Assembly: GCF_004564075.1 (NCBI RefSeq)
Contig: NZ_CP038256.1
Span: forward strand, 620,001 to 684,000
DNA: 64,000 nt
Direction of reading: 5' to 3'
DNA from: Microbacterium sediminis
Lineage (GTDB): Bacteria; Actinomycetota; Actinomycetes; Actinomycetales; Microbacteriaceae
Shown: piece after piece, positions 52,476 to 62,813 of the stretch
How the letters are laid out: each line of letters opens with the position of its first letter
Numbering within the stretch: position 1 is the first letter of the stretch
The notes under the pieces: generated by a model
What the model was told of the DNA's origin: nothing
Database searches by the model: none
Seen by the model: only the letters and a program-made list of their open reading frames with translations
Translations under genes and position numbers: made by a program

Positions 52476-52559
52476 CCGCAGGCCGCCGCCCGCGCCGATC
52501 CGCGCGACACACGCCGGCCGGTGCGGAATATTCCCGCGGCGTCGCCTACCGTTGCGAGC

Positions 52560-53471
52560 ATGGATGGGGGCCAGGTACTCGGCGGCGGGGTCGTGATGCT
52601 CGTCGCCGTCGTGCTCTGGCTCGTCTACCTGCTGCCGACCTGGATCAACCGCTCGCGGTACGACGCCGCCGAGCGCAACGCCGTCCGGCTCGGGCGCGCG
52701 CTGCGCGTGCTGGCCGAGACCACCGAGTCGCCGGCCGAGGTGCGCGTGGAGCTCACCGCCCGCCAGGCGCACCTCCAGCAGAAGCTCGCGCGGCGCGCGC
52801 AGGCCGAGGTGGAGCGCCTGCAGCGGGAGCGCGAGAAGATCGCGGCACAGGAGCAGCGCCTCGAGCGCGACCGCGAGCGCCAGGAGCTCGAGCGCCGGCG
52901 CCGCGAGGTCCGTGCCGCCCAGCGCGCGCTCAACGCGGGCCGCCGCATGGCCCGCGCGCGGCGGATCGTGCGCCTGTCGGCGCTGGCCGCGGTCGTCTCG
53001 GGCATCGGCCTGACCGTGTGGGGCACGCTGGCGTTCGCCGCGGGCCCCGGCATGCTGCTCGGCGGCGTGGGGCTGTCGGTGCTCGGCATCGTGGTGCTCA
53101 ACCGGATGGCGCACGTGGCGCGCCGCGTCCGCGCTCCGCGCCCCGTGCCGGCTCCCGTGGTCGCCCGCCGAGAGTCGTCGCCGCTGATCAACCCCGAGGA
53201 CCGCGGCTGGACGCCCCGCACGCTGCCGGCGCCGCTCGTGGCGACCGCCGGCTCGCGCGCCGCGGGCGAGGTCGCGGCGCAGAGCGCGCGCGAGGCCCTG
53301 CTGCAGGCCGCCCGCGAGGAGGCCCTGCGCACCCGCGTCGAGGAGCGGACGCCCGCTCCGGTGCCGCTCACGGCGGCCGAGGAATCGCGCTATGCCCGCA
53401 TGGGCTACGTCGACGACGCCGAGATCGAGAGCCACGTGCGCGAACTGCTCGCACGTCGCGCGGCGGGGTGA
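52560..53471 (+). CDS. Membrane protein with coiled-coil and two helix regions
   Basis: A 303-residue protein with an N-terminal membrane helix (GGVVMLVAVVLWLVYLLPTW), then a long charged coiled coil (residues about 75-135, rich in Arg, Glu and Gln), a second hydrophobic pair (residues about 140-185) and a disordered Ala/Arg-rich C-terminus. No enzyme motif is seen. This layout is a common conserved hypothetical of Microbacteriaceae found after a RimJ-type gene. TACCGT seven bases before the ATG suggests leaderless transcription. It precedes tRNA-Ala. Confidence 0.8.
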   Translation: MDGGQVLGGGVVMLVAVVLWLVYLLPTWINRSRYDAAERNAVRLGRALRVLAETTESPAEVRVELTARQAHLQQKLARRAQAEVERLQREREKIAAQEQRLERDRERQELERRRREVRAAQRALNAGRRMARARRIVRLSALAAVVSGIGLTVWGTLAFAAGPGMLLGGVGLSVLGIVVLNRMAHVARRVRAPRPVPAPVVARRESSPLINPEDRGWTPRTLPAPLVATAGSRAAGEVAAQSAREALLQAAREEALRTRVEERTPAPVPLTAAEESRYARMGYVDDAEIESHVRELLARRAAG

Positions 53472-53519: not shown

Positions 53520-53596
53520 GGGCCTATGGCGCAGTTGGTAGCGCGTCTCGTTCGCAATGAGAAGGTCAGGGGTTCGAATCCCCTTAGGTCCACCAG
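53520..53596 (+). tRNA. tRNA-Ala (anticodon CGC)
   Basis: A 77-base gene with an acceptor stem GGGCCTA/TAGGTCC that contains the alanine identity pair G3-U70. The anticodon loop is TTCGCAA (CGC, reads GCG), the T-arm GGTTCGAATCC, and CCA is encoded. A TAACGT-like -10 lies at 53501-53506. Confidence 0.95.
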
Positions 53597-53681
53597 AATC
53601 GATGTGCCCCGTCAGATGGCGGGGCACATCGCGTATCCGGGCGGCATCGCCGCTCGCGCGACGGGCACGCGGAGTCGGAGC

Positions 53682-54728
53682 ATGCGGACAGGGCAGACGG
53701 ATCGCGCGATCGAGGCCGCGATCGCGGCCGAGGCCCGGTCGGCGGGCATCGTGCTCGATGACGCGCAGAGCGTGGCCGCCTCTCGTCTGGCGCGACTGGC
53801 GGGCCCGATCGGCGATCCCGACGAGCGTCCGGTCGGCGTGTACCTGCACGGACCGGCCGGCCGCGGCAAGACCTGGCTCGCCGATGCGTTCCTGCGGGCG
53901 GTGCCCGATGCGCGCACGCGGCGCGTCCACTTCCACGGTTTCCTCGAGGAGCTGCATCGCGCGATCTTCGCGCGGCGGATCGACGCGGCGCCGGCGCAGG
54001 TCGATGCCGTCGCCGGCGCGATCGACGACACGATCGGCGATGCGGAGGTGCTGGTCTTCGACGAGTTCCACGTGCACGATCCGGGTGACGCGCGCCTGCT
54101 CACGCTGCTGCTGCAGCGGGTCGCCGATCGCGGCATCGCCGTGGTGGCCACGTCGAACTACGCGCCGGCGCAGCTGCTGCCCAACCCGATCTGGCACCAC
54201 CTGTTCGAGCCGGGGATCGCCCTGATCGAGGAGCGGTTCGACATCGTGCCGCTCGAGGGCCCCCGGGACTACCGCGAGGGCGGGGTAGCCCGCGATGGGT
54301 TCGCGGCGGGACGCTGGATCGTCGCCGATGCCGCGCCGGGGGAGCCGACGACGCGGCTCGAGGTGCGCGGCAGGGAGTTCGAGGTCGTCGCCGCCGGCGA
54401 CGGGGAGCTCACGATCACCTTCGCGCAGCTGTGCGAGGCACCGACCTCGGCGATCGAGTACCTCGACTGGGCGACCCGCTACCCGCGCTGGACGGTGCGC
54501 GATGTGCCGTCGCTCGCCGCCGTGCCGCCGCCGGCGCGGCAGCGCTTCGTCAACGCGATCGACGTCCTGGTCGATCGCGGGGTGCGCGCCGCGTTCACCT
54601 CGGCGCTGACCCTCGAGGCCTTCATCGCCTCGGCCCACGACGCGGGCCCCGACGCCCCGCGCCTCACGAGCCGGCTGCGGCTGCTGCGCGCGGAGCGGCC
54701 GCTCGCCGACGCGCGGGTGGCGGGCTAG
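53682..54728 (+). CDS. zapE: Cell division protein ZapE / AFG1-like ATPase
   Basis: AAA+-type ATPase (348 residues) that in E. coli affects Z-ring dynamics and in mitochondria assists protein quality control. Walker A GPAGRGKTW, Walker B VLVFDEFHVHD, the sensor segment VVATSNYAPAQL with LFEPGIALIEERFDIVPL, and the end TSRLRLL are present. The ATG at 53682 follows GGAGTCGGAG; an open frame upstream runs through the tRNA and is rejected. Its stop codon overlaps the stop of the decayed yceI copy on the other strand. A fragment of its 3' end recurs at 56548-56643. Confidence 0.93.
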   Translation: MRTGQTDRAIEAAIAAEARSAGIVLDDAQSVAASRLARLAGPIGDPDERPVGVYLHGPAGRGKTWLADAFLRAVPDARTRRVHFHGFLEELHRAIFARRIDAAPAQVDAVAGAIDDTIGDAEVLVFDEFHVHDPGDARLLTLLLQRVADRGIAVVATSNYAPAQLLPNPIWHHLFEPGIALIEERFDIVPLEGPRDYREGGVARDGFAAGRWIVADAAPGEPTTRLEVRGREFEVVAAGDGELTITFAQLCEAPTSAIEYLDWATRYPRWTVRDVPSLAAVPPPARQRFVNAIDVLVDRGVRAAFTSALTLEAFIASAHDAGPDAPRLTSRLRLLRAERPLADARVAG

Positions 54729-54942
54729 GCGCGCTCGAAGACGAGCTGGAACTCGACGAAGCCCTCGGGCTCCACTCGCACGAAGCCGAGGTTCGGCGCC
54801 GTGACCCCGTAGTCCGCGAACGGGGCGGTGCCGTCGGCGGCCGGTCCCGCGACCGGCTCGGTCAGCCGGAACGTGGCCGCGGGATACTCGGCGGTCGAGA
54901 GCGCCTGATCGCGACATCGACGGTGAACTCCCCGCTCTGTAA
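54725..54942 (-). pseudogene. Decayed yceI copy (C-terminal remnant)
   Basis: The last 60 or so codons match the intact yceI at 56644 (DQALSTAEYP, FADYGVTAPNLGF and VEPEGFVEFQLVFER), but the middle beta strands are deleted and the part before DQALS is another small deletion away. No start remains. It is convergent with zapE exactly as the intact yceI is with the zapE fragment, so it is one half of a duplicated junction. Confidence 0.85.
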
Positions 54943-55018
54943 TCGGCGAATGGCACCGGCATCGCGCGCGAATTCGCGCGGCGTGGCACCATGTCGCGTA
55001 AGGGGATGGAGAAGCCGC

Positions 55019-55429
55019 GTGAAGGTGCCTTTCGTCACGGGCGAGTTCGTGGTGGTGGACGGGGTCGCGTACCCGCGCTACGACCCGGGATACGGCGTGA
55101 GCAACCGGCCGGGGGAGATCTCGCTCGGGGCACCGGGTGACCCCGCCACGTGGGCGATGCGCGTCGCGGCGGATGATCACCGCGTGGTCTCCGTCCAGCC
55201 CACGGCGAAGCTCCACGGGGTCCCGGTCTTCGACCTGCGGTACCACCCCGACATCCGCCGGGTCAGCTTCAAGGTGCTCAGCGAGTACGCGCCGGAGCTG
55301 CGCGCGGCAGGTCTGCAGCTGGACGTCGACCACGACTACAAGGGCCTTGAGCATCGGGGAACGGCCGCGGCCGCGGAGTTCACGGATTTCGAGGACGGCA
55401 TTCCTGAGGAACTGCGCGGGCTGGTGTGA
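55019..55429 (+). CDS. Hypothetical protein in the inserted cassette
   Basis: A 136-residue protein starting GTG behind GGAGAAG. It has an N-terminal beta-rich part (VPFVTGEFVVVDGVAYPRYDP), then PVFDLRYHPDIRRVSFKVLSEYAPELRAAGLQLDVDHDYKG, and an acidic end (FTDFEDGIPEELRGLV). No family, signal peptide or membrane helix is recognised. Next to an immunity-type gene it may be a small immunity or toxin-related protein, but that is only context. The gap to the next gene (55430-55572) shows no further gene. Confidence 0.65.
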   Translation: MKVPFVTGEFVVVDGVAYPRYDPGYGVSNRPGEISLGAPGDPATWAMRVAADDHRVVSVQPTAKLHGVPVFDLRYHPDIRRVSFKVLSEYAPELRAAGLQLDVDHDYKGLEHRGTAAAAEFTDFEDGIPEELRGLV

Positions 55430-55572
55430 GCAGCTGCAGGGCCTTCACCGGCCGCGGCGGACACCGGGCGGTTCCGGGTGCGAGGGAGCGGTGCCCATCG
55501 CCGATCGTGCTTCGGCGCCCGTACGTTTGAGAACGTGAGCTTCATCCGCTCGGAGGTCAGGAGGACCCTCGC

Positions 55573-56484
55573 ATGAGTTTTCCCGTGCCGTACACCGTCG
55601 CAGGTCCGGTCTCACAGGAGACGATCGAGCGCTTCGGGCACATCGTGTCGATCGATCTGGAGAACGTCTGGAAGGACGAGGGCCAGCTGATCACGGCGGA
55701 CGGTTTCATCCGCGCGATCGATCCGGCGCCGCTGCTGCCGTTGATGGATCAGCTGCTGCCGGCGATCCCGGGGGCGGTGCCGTTGTTTGCGACGGCGTGG
55801 GGCGACCTCGTCGTCGCCCACAGCGACACCCCTGATCACGCGCTCGCGGAGAAGCACAAGCTGACGCTCGTTCTGTTCCGGTTCGGCTTCTACCGGCACT
55901 TCCTCAACGTCCCCGTTCTGGCGTTCGACTTGTTGGTGAGCGAGGACACCCAGGTCGGCCCCCTCGCCCGTGACTTCCATGGCCGCGGCGTCGCGTATGC
56001 CGACGCCGTCGCGGCGCTCGGCGTGCCCGAGATCGACGAGTGCTTCGGGTTCGTGCTGCCGTTGTCGGCGGGCGGTGCGAACGAGGTGTCGAACCTCACG
56101 CGTCGCAGACTCGTCGAGCACCTGGCGTTCCTGGTGCAGATGGGCGGGCCGCCGCGCGACCTGGACGAGCTGGACCCGCCGAAGACCGCTCCGGATCCCG
56201 ACGATCTTCCGGAGCGTGTGCCGACTCCCGCCGAGTCGCAACTGATCGAGCAGGGCTCCGCTCTGCTGCTCAAGGTGAACCCGACCGAGGACTTCGACTT
56301 CCGTCCCCTCCCGGAGTTCGGGGCGGTGTACGTGTGGCAGCGCGGGTTCGGCACGGGCCAGATCATCGTCGCCCCGGGTGACGAGGTGCTCTACGGCAAC
56401 TCGATGCTGTCGGACGCGCAGCTGATCGAGCTGTGGCGCCAGGGGCGGCGCACTCCGATCGAGAAGTTCGACGTCCGCCGATGA
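55573..56484 (+). CDS. GAD-like/DUF1851 immunity-type protein
   Basis: A 303-residue cytoplasmic protein. Residues about 12-75 resemble the GAD-like domain (FGHIVSIDLENVWKDEGQ, then ADGFIRAIDPAPLLPLMDQLL) and about 60-205 the DUF1851 (Tdi1) domain (VPLFATAWGDLVVAH, then ECFGFVLPLSAGGANEVSNLTRRRLVEHLAFLVQMGG); the C-terminus is Pro-rich and ends in a WQRGFGTGQIIV segment. Such proteins are immunity partners of secreted polymorphic toxins. AGGAGGA lies seven bases before the ATG. No toxin gene is nearby, so it looks like an orphan immunity gene. Confidence 0.65.
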   Translation: MSFPVPYTVAGPVSQETIERFGHIVSIDLENVWKDEGQLITADGFIRAIDPAPLLPLMDQLLPAIPGAVPLFATAWGDLVVAHSDTPDHALAEKHKLTLVLFRFGFYRHFLNVPVLAFDLLVSEDTQVGPLARDFHGRGVAYADAVAALGVPEIDECFGFVLPLSAGGANEVSNLTRRRLVEHLAFLVQMGGPPRDLDELDPPKTAPDPDDLPERVPTPAESQLIEQGSALLLKVNPTEDFDFRPLPEFGAVYVWQRGFGTGQIIVAPGDEVLYGNSMLSDAQLIELWRQGRRTPIEKFDVRR

Positions 56485-56547
56485 ACGACATGGTCGAGAC
56501 GGCGCTCAGAAGTGTCCGATCGGACGAGCGGCACCGGGCCGACCGCG

Positions 56548-56643
56548 CACACCTCGGTGCTGCCCCTCGAGGCCTTCATCGCCTCGGCCCACGACACGCG
56601 CCCGACGCCTCGCGCCTTACGAGCCGGCTGCGGCGGTCGCGCG
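56548..56643 (+). pseudogene. zapE 3'-end fragment
   Basis: About 95 bases match the 3' end of zapE (LEAFIASAHD and the TSRL end), with a deletion of some 35 bases and a lost frame. They run up to the stop of the intact yceI, and the left edge coincides with the end of homology to any cassette gene. An ATG at 56481, overlapping the immunity gene stop, opens a frame that runs into this fragment after about 20 codons and may be a truncated third cassette gene. Confidence 0.75.
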
Positions 56644-57357
56644 CTAGGAGCGCTCGAACACCAGCTGGAACTCGACGAAGCCCTCGGGCTCCACGCTCAC
56701 GAAGCCGAGGTTCGGCGCGGTGACGCCGTAGTCGGCGAACGTGATCGGGATGCTGCCGGCCACGTGAATCCGCTCCCCATCCGAGACGGCCTCGATCGGC
56801 ACCGTGACGGCCTGGGTCACGCCGCGCAGCGTGAGCTCGCCGGCGGCATCGAACGCGGCGGTGCCGCCGGCGACCGGCCCCGTGACGGCGACCGGCTGGG
56901 TCAGGCGGAAGCTCGCCTCAGGGTACTCGTCCGTCGACAGCGCCTGGTCGCGGAAGTACGCGTCGCGCTCGGCGGCGTCGGTGGCGATGCTCGCGACGTC
57001 GACGGTGAACTCCGCCTGCTGCAGGGCGAGCCCGTCGATGACCGCCGTGCCCGAGACCTCCTCGGTGCGGCCGACCACCGTGACGTCCTCGCCGGCGAGC
57101 ACCTCGTCGACGCGATACCCCGCGAACGAACCGTCGGCGACGGCCCAGGTGCCGGTGAGGTCCGACACCGCCGCGCCGGCCGAGGGCGTCGCGCCGTCGG
57201 ACGGCACGGACGGGGCCGCCGGCTGCTCGCCCACGATCACGTCGCGATAGAACGCGGGACCCCAGATCAGGGCGACGGCCCCCACCACGACAAGCAGAGC
57301 GAGGGCGACGAGCAGGGCGATGACGCGGCGGCGACGGGGGCGCGAGGGGGAGGTCAT
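56644..57357 (-). CDS. YceI-family protein, membrane-anchored
   Basis: A 237-residue protein: an Arg-rich N-terminus, one membrane helix (residues about 10-35), a Pro/Ser linker, and a YceI lipocalin-like beta barrel outside the membrane (LTGTWAVADGSFAGYRV, VDVASIATDAAERDAYFRDQAL, ELTLRGVTQAVTVPIEA, FADYGVTAPNLGF). YceI barrels bind polyisoprenoids or other long lipids. It is the intact copy of the pair at 54725. The 99 bases after its start hold the rRNA promoter side and no gene. Confidence 0.92.
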   Translation of the reverse strand: MTSPSRPRRRRVIALLVALALLVVVGAVALIWGPAFYRDVIVGEQPAAPSVPSDGATPSAGAAVSDLTGTWAVADGSFAGYRVDEVLAGEDVTVVGRTEEVSGTAVIDGLALQQAEFTVDVASIATDAAERDAYFRDQALSTDEYPEASFRLTQPVAVTGPVAGGTAAFDAAGELTLRGVTQAVTVPIEAVSDGERIHVAGSIPITFADYGVTAPNLGFVSVEPEGFVEFQLVFERS

Positions 57358-57456
57358 GCCTCGAGTCTGAGGCACGAACCCGCACGGGACCAGGAGGTTT
57401 CGGTCGTATGAACGCTCCGTGACGACTGGGCGACACGCCCGGGTGCACGGCCCGGT

Positions 57457-57485
57457 TTGCCCGAACCCCCGCAACGGCGTAATGT
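57457..57485 (+). promoter_or_regulatory. rRNA operon promoter
   Basis: TTGCCC at 57457-57462 and TAATGT at 57480-57485 with exactly 17 bases between them. It lies 340 bases before the 16S gene. Confidence 0.65.
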
Positions 57486-57823
57486 TTTCTCTGTCGCCGC
57501 CAAGCGGTGAGGTTGAGCCGGAAGGTTCCCACCCCAAGCAAGCGACACAAACCCCCGATGAAGATCCTCGCAGGAGGGTGTCTGACTCGTGGGACGAATG
57601 CCCCGGAGGGCCACGGCGGGAGTCGTGGGGCTGGGTGCGTCCGATCCTTGAGAACTCAACAGCGTGCACTTGTCAAATGCCAAATAACCTCGTCGGCTGA
57701 CTTTGGTCAGTCGTGAGATTCCTTTGGATCAATTTTTGGAAGTCAGTTTTGACATCCTTTTTTGGTCATGATTGAACTCGCTGCAGCAGTGATCGTTTTC
57801 CCGGTCGTGTTGTGGCTTTCGTT
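57486..57823 (+). other. rRNA leader region
   Basis: Non-coding transcribed leader. It holds a CTTGAGAACTC block typical of actinobacterial rRNA leaders, an AT-rich second half, and TGTCAAATG at 57671-57679, which is exactly complementary to 59432-59440 behind the 16S gene. The two would form the base of the 16S processing stem. The short ORFs here are not supported. Confidence 0.7.

Positions 57824-62813
<4,990 letters not shown>

Follow-up and report, generated by a model that had tools for sequence, protein, structure and literature searches.

In a 64,000-nucleotide stretch of Microbacterium sediminis (contig NZ_CP038256.1, forward-strand positions 620,001 to 684,000; hereafter the window, to whose first letter our coordinates refer), taken from a genome of 2.92 Mb, the convergent 3' ends of the genes zapE and yceI are present twice, at 54584-54941 and at 56538-57023. 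The two junction copies have decayed in complementary fashion and enclose two cargo genes, the second of which encodes a DUF1851/Tdi1-type protein and is likely, judged from sequence, to be an orphan immunity gene. A junction duplication of this kind around immunity-type cargo had been proposed in a preliminary description of the DNA, and the analysis reported here supports it.

The duplicated junction and its cargo

Local alignment of 54560-55010 with 56500-57120 gives 326 identical bases out of 385 aligned (85%), with insertions and deletions, and a score of 399, compared with a maximum of 122 over 200 shuffles of one side. The core of the junction is carried by blocks of 112 nt (89% identity), 61 nt (90%) and 44 nt (89%) at a spacing of 1919-1954 nt, and the overlapping CTAG stop codons are retained in both copies (54725-54728 and 56644-56647). 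The preliminary claim that the convergent ends and their stops occur twice, and the check that the copies should align over the junction, are thus both borne out by this alignment. The features of the block are as follows.

53682-54728, plus strand: intact zapE (AFG1-like ATPase; NCBIfam ZapE 251 bits, cut-off 140; PF03969 218 bits)
54584-54941, no strand: left junction copy, the zapE 3' end and the decayed yceI 3' half (alignment)
54725-54941, minus strand: yceI scrap, about residues 115-237 (alignment)
55019-55429, plus strand: cargo gene 1, an open reading frame (ORF) of 136 aa with a third-position GC content (GC3) of 0.88 and no domain match
55573-56484, plus strand: cargo gene 2, 303 aa, DUF1851/Tdi1-type domain (PF08906) and a C-terminal second domain (about residues 215-303)
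56538-57023, no strand: right junction copy, the zapE scrap and the 3' half of intact yceI (alignment)
56543-56647, plus strand: zapE scrap, 3' end only (alignment)
56644-57357, minus strand: intact yceI, 237 aa (PF04264 86.4 bits)

The domain matches and the alignment agree with the earlier account that zapE is intact and yceI decayed on the left, with the converse on the right. Matched over no more than the residues listed, the left yceI scrap shows internal losses of 114, 6 and 43 nt, and short direct repeats, read from the alignment, bound the first and last of these (CGAACG and TCGCG, for the 114- and 43-nt losses respectively). The right zapE scrap has losses of 1 and 34 nt; it had been put at 95 bases and is somewhat longer, at about 105 nt, or about 125 nt when a weak extension is counted.

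Two cargo genes including a DUF1851 gene do lie between the junctions, as had been described. Cargo gene 1 has no match in Pfam, NCBIfam or PADLOC; a word-based search covering some 5.8 billion proteins returned only itself, and among 198 genus genomes it was found in its own alone. Its protein is listed on three contigs and is thus no artefact of a single assembly. That it could be a second immunity gene is a guess.

Cargo gene 2 and its Ntox15-associated relatives

The assignment of cargo gene 2 rests on a match to PF08906 (T6SS_Tdi1_C) of 44.8 bits, above the cut-off of 27.4, and on matches to the DUF1851 chains of two solved structures (8g0k_B and 8fzz_B); entries 8FZZ and 8G0K come from work on Ntox15 nucleases and the immunity proteins that counter them (PMC10470768). 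A protein search returned 25 clusters, seven of which, besides its own, cover at least 94% at 44-52% identity, and PADLOC gave no match for the gene. Among the 198 genus genomes, Ntox15 was found in nine, and in eight of the nine a DUF1851 match adjoins it, the gap between matched stretches lying within about 105 nt in seven genomes and within about 515 nt in one. In M. sediminis itself there was no match to Ntox15 (PF15604), in a search confined to Ntox15 among toxin families. Because Ntox15 genes of the genus adjoin DUF1851 genes while this genome shows none, cargo gene 2 is probably an orphan immunity gene. By reading, the Ntox15 toxins of genus mates also adjoin genes resembling type VII partners.

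Across the wider family, a match to cargo gene 2 was obtained in 18 of 189 genomes, and 11 of these loci were read. In three of the 11 a neighbouring ORF carries an H..D...GG motif resembling that of Ntox15 ORFs, as derived by eye from the toxins of the genus. The second domain is fused as in cargo gene 2 in three (L235, L236 and L238; L and G numbers are our handles for loci and genomes). It is a separate ORF of 89-90 aa elsewhere: in L251 a 90-aa ORF (1173-1445) stands beside an Ntox15-DUF1851 pair, and in L032 the ORF (594-863) lies near a DUF1851 gene. As separate observations, L220 and L050 (G119) show, in a genus mate, one Ntox15 gene followed by several tandem DUF1851-type genes, forming a small immunity array, and in L043 (G038; 52-1492 and 1776-2399) a second-domain protein is encoded just after what reads as a nuclease toxin and a small partner gene.

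The interval between tRNA-Ala(CGC) and the rRNA operon

The whole zapE...yceI block sits between a tRNA gene and an rRNA operon, whose boundaries are as follows.

53520-53595, plus strand: tRNA-Ala (CGC; ARAGORN), present in relatives, left conserved boundary of the variable interval
57429-57600, plus strand: rRNA operon leader, matched upstream of relatives' rRNA genes, right boundary of the interval; 16S from about 57830

The tRNA-Ala gene and the gene upstream of it occur together in all 20 relatives fetched, and the GNAT gene that precedes them in 16. The upstream gene (52521-53471) has a weak match to the divisome protein SepX/GlpR (22 bits, cut-off 150) and was found in 358 of 366 genus genomes. 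The position of tRNA-Ala was compared with rRNA positions in 15 relatives. Six have an rRNA operon after the tRNA within one contig, at distances of about 100 bp with no gene between (G371), about 2.6 kb (G291), 12.9 kb (G260), 14.8 kb (G327), 15.6 kb (G178) and 32.9 kb (G366); in six others the two are distant or on separate contigs of a near-complete assembly (G222, G232, G045, G246, G258 and G112), and three are uninformative (G354, with no rRNA match, and G270 and G182, where contigs end). Since these distances differ among relatives, the interval from tRNA-Ala(CGC) to the rRNA operon is the recurrent variable region, and the site in G371 is empty of the entire block, not of the cassette alone. 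Sugar-type gene families, identified by reading, are shared before the rRNA operon in L197-L198 (G366), L203 (G327) and L208 (G182).

A strong zapE match (E value 1e-28 or better) was obtained in 28 of the 198 genomes, M. sediminis included, and in seven of the 15 picked relatives. The nearest sampled relative, G366, is 75% identical in the gene that precedes the tRNA and 92-93% identical in conserved genes; its zapE is only 52% identical and lies about 870 kb from its tRNA-Ala, which rules out a vertically inherited copy common to the two. DNA resembling yceI was detected in 16 of 365 other genus genomes; the scan compared DNA and scored two candidates in each genome, so diverged copies may escape it. 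In G270 and G371 yceI lies directly before the rRNA leader in the orientation seen in M. sediminis, with other genes behind it; in these two loci (L199, G270:C90; L200, G371:C1) the rRNA operon has other upstream neighbours.

The zapE-yceI pair itself was not encountered again. It was adjacent at none of 51 zapE loci, all of which extended 700 nt or more downstream, and at none of 30 yceI loci (two of them the same place), so that zapE and yceI are ruled out as conserved neighbours. A single-junction empty site was found neither by DNA search of the 365 other genus genomes nor in those zapE and yceI loci, and the loci read held no other cargo at such a junction; we also found no literature treating zapE together with yceI. 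The proposal that convergent gene ends serve as landing sites for immunity genes therefore finds no support in the relatives read, and the comparison of relatives that had been suggested yielded neither empty sites nor alternative cargo. The outcome that had been named as refuting the idea, relatives with these genes in this order and an empty site nowhere, was likewise not observed.

Origin of the duplication

We consider it about an even chance that the junction was duplicated, and the cassette acquired, when the locus recombined with DNA from a close relative that bore the same two genes, cargo gene 2 then being an orphan immunity gene. A zapE-yceI pair would have been resident between tRNA-Ala(CGC) and the rRNA operon, and the incoming DNA would have carried the same pair together with the two cargo genes. 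Recombination at the junction, either as a single crossover or with one end joined by homology and the other illegitimately, would leave the cargo between two junction copies, after which the redundant inner gene ends would decay through small deletions and the outer, intact zapE and yceI would persist. The product of cargo gene 2 would most likely bind and inactivate an Ntox15-type nuclease injected by competitors. We infer the foreign origin, the recombination route and the protective role from the following comparisons and from the toxin neighbours of relatives.

The preliminary description had held that the copies are much diverged, as DNA from a relative or an old event would leave them, and the divergence is indeed near the distance between species. 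In three conserved genes, 31-33% of third codon positions differ between M. sediminis and G366. Between the yceI copies, 72 compared codons show 5 differences at first positions, 8 at second and 17 at third, and the copies are nearly species-distant because 17 of 72 compares with 0.31-0.33 in those genes. Over 65 codons of yceI, 14 of 24 differences fall at third positions. When 1500 pairs were simulated with a scrap evolving neutrally from the outset, 3.3% or 1.8% reached that share, which was commonly reached under constraint (81% or 30%). These simulations are simple and the numbers of differences small, and within those bounds the yceI codon positions favour a separately evolved copy. The scraps also carry the homologue-typical residue at some sites (T149 and E154 in yceI; P304 and T305 in zapE), and among seven amino-acid differences in zapE the residue commoner in homologues is the scrap's at four and the resident gene's at two, with one tie.

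Several observations weigh against this reading of origin and function. The zapE scrap has 5, 3 and 2 differences at first, second and third codon positions (2 of 10 at third); constrained simulations give so low a third-position count in 0.2% (acceptance 0.15) or 2.3% (acceptance 0.3) of runs. Of 11 amino-acid differences between the yceI copies, the resident has the residue commoner among homologues at seven and the scrap at four. The two scraps thus give conflicting stories on origin. Nothing bearing the junction, whether a donor genome, a circle, a plasmid or a phage, turned up among genus genomes and plasmid and phage records. Finally, seven of the 15 other genus genomes with a match to cargo gene 2 show no Ntox15, so that a DUF1851 gene need not face Ntox15; two of those seven (G038 and G096) match the second domain only.

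So low a third-position count in the zapE scrap arises in 12-14% of runs under neutral decay and in 13% under weak constraint (0.6). It does not favour a separately evolved copy, and on this pattern an old internal duplication is possible. In such an event the junction would have been duplicated in tandem, the two cargo genes would have entered separately at the joint so formed, and the inner halves would have decayed neutrally. This history would draw on a simple same-genome source, as the two genes were side by side in none of the other genomes read, and would accommodate the zapE scrap. It would need two events at one joint, and the third-position excess in yceI is typical of two working genes. 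We regard it as unlikely.

The variable interval itself admits another history, in which two islands that each carried a zapE-yceI pair came together between tRNA-Ala and the rRNA operon, for example by recombining on the tRNA or the rRNA side. The block of zapE, yceI scrap and cargo and the block of zapE scrap, yceI and rRNA would then differ in origin, with their inner halves decayed. The differing codon-position patterns of the two scraps and the yceI genes before the rRNA leader in G270 and G371 are consistent with this, as is the variability of the interval among relatives. It requires a rare pair twice, no intermediate was seen, and the four ORFs scanned gave no integrase match; we hold it to be improbable.

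Signatures of mobile elements were sought in the same interval. No repeat of the tRNA 3' end (18 nt, up to five substitutions) was present in 53596-58000, which rules out a site-specific tRNA island, and the cassette ends lack a long terminal inverted repeat, the longest stretch they share being an inverted match of 9 nt, a size expected by chance, which rules out a transposon. No recombinase domain occurs in the four ORFs of the interval. A phage or plasmid origin was rejected, the matches of the cargo gene 2 protein in four plasmid records and one phage record being weak and below 60% identity at their best places. Cassette DNA had no match in phage records, and plasmid records matched only parts of zapE (five records). 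These results bear on the suggestion that an excised circle or plasmid bearing the junction and cargo had integrated in Campbell fashion. The topology, with cargo between half-broken direct repeats, is what a single crossover would leave, and that part of the suggestion stands; the circle is not borne out, as neither a junction in the plasmid and phage records searched nor an att-like tRNA repeat was found, the four ORFs hold no replication or mobility gene, and nothing speaks for a circle in particular. We therefore rate this route as very improbable.

Recombination with a relative's DNA would place the locus among events already described. Like the orphan Tdi immunity genes that Bacteroidales carry against Ntox15/Tde nucleases (PMC10470768), cargo gene 2 encodes a DUF1851-type protein in a genome without an Ntox15 match; unlike them, it is a single gene in an actinobacterium, is not part of a mobile array and carries a fused second domain, and the toxins of its genus mates stand, by reading, beside type VII-like partner genes rather than in a type VI secretion system (T6SS) setting. 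For the T6SS orphan immunity arrays of Vibrio cholerae, homology-facilitated illegitimate recombination has been proposed (PMC5361080); there too immunity genes are gained through recombination anchored in shared flanks and old parts remain, although the anchor in V. cholerae is the toxin locus itself and here would be an unrelated zapE-yceI junction. Transformation of Streptococcus pneumoniae yields merodiploids (PMC3784515), likewise tandem duplications from foreign or own DNA with partial homology, but those duplications span about 100-900 kb and need repeats, whereas in M. sediminis the duplicated part measures about 0.5 kb and flanks a 1.6-kb cassette. The recombinase-associated AID arrays of Bacteroidales (PMC12247911) also hold orphan immunity genes of 100-300 codons; in contrast to them, the M. 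sediminis locus has only two cargo genes and no tyrosine recombinase among the scanned ORFs. Recombination yielding orphan immunity genes has been described in agrobacteria as well (PMC8546570).

A broader proposal, that the tRNA-Ala-rRNA interval is an exchange zone in a clade of Microbacterium, in which short gene-end junctions anchor integrase-free swaps of immunity cassettes, the two-domain DUF1851 protein and the 136-aa orphan then being a paired, lineage-restricted defence unit, is speculative and in our judgement quite doubtful. The locus looks like an orphan immunity gene gained by recombination, an event of a type already known, and like the scar of ordinary recombination, with no new system. 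As such it would offer a readable example of how simple recombination at a shared gene-end junction can give a chromosome a stray immunity gene away from any toxin locus and any mobile element, and the fusion of its DUF1851 protein to a small domain, which relatives encode by itself next to a toxin gene and its immunity gene, would mark that domain as a testable partner.

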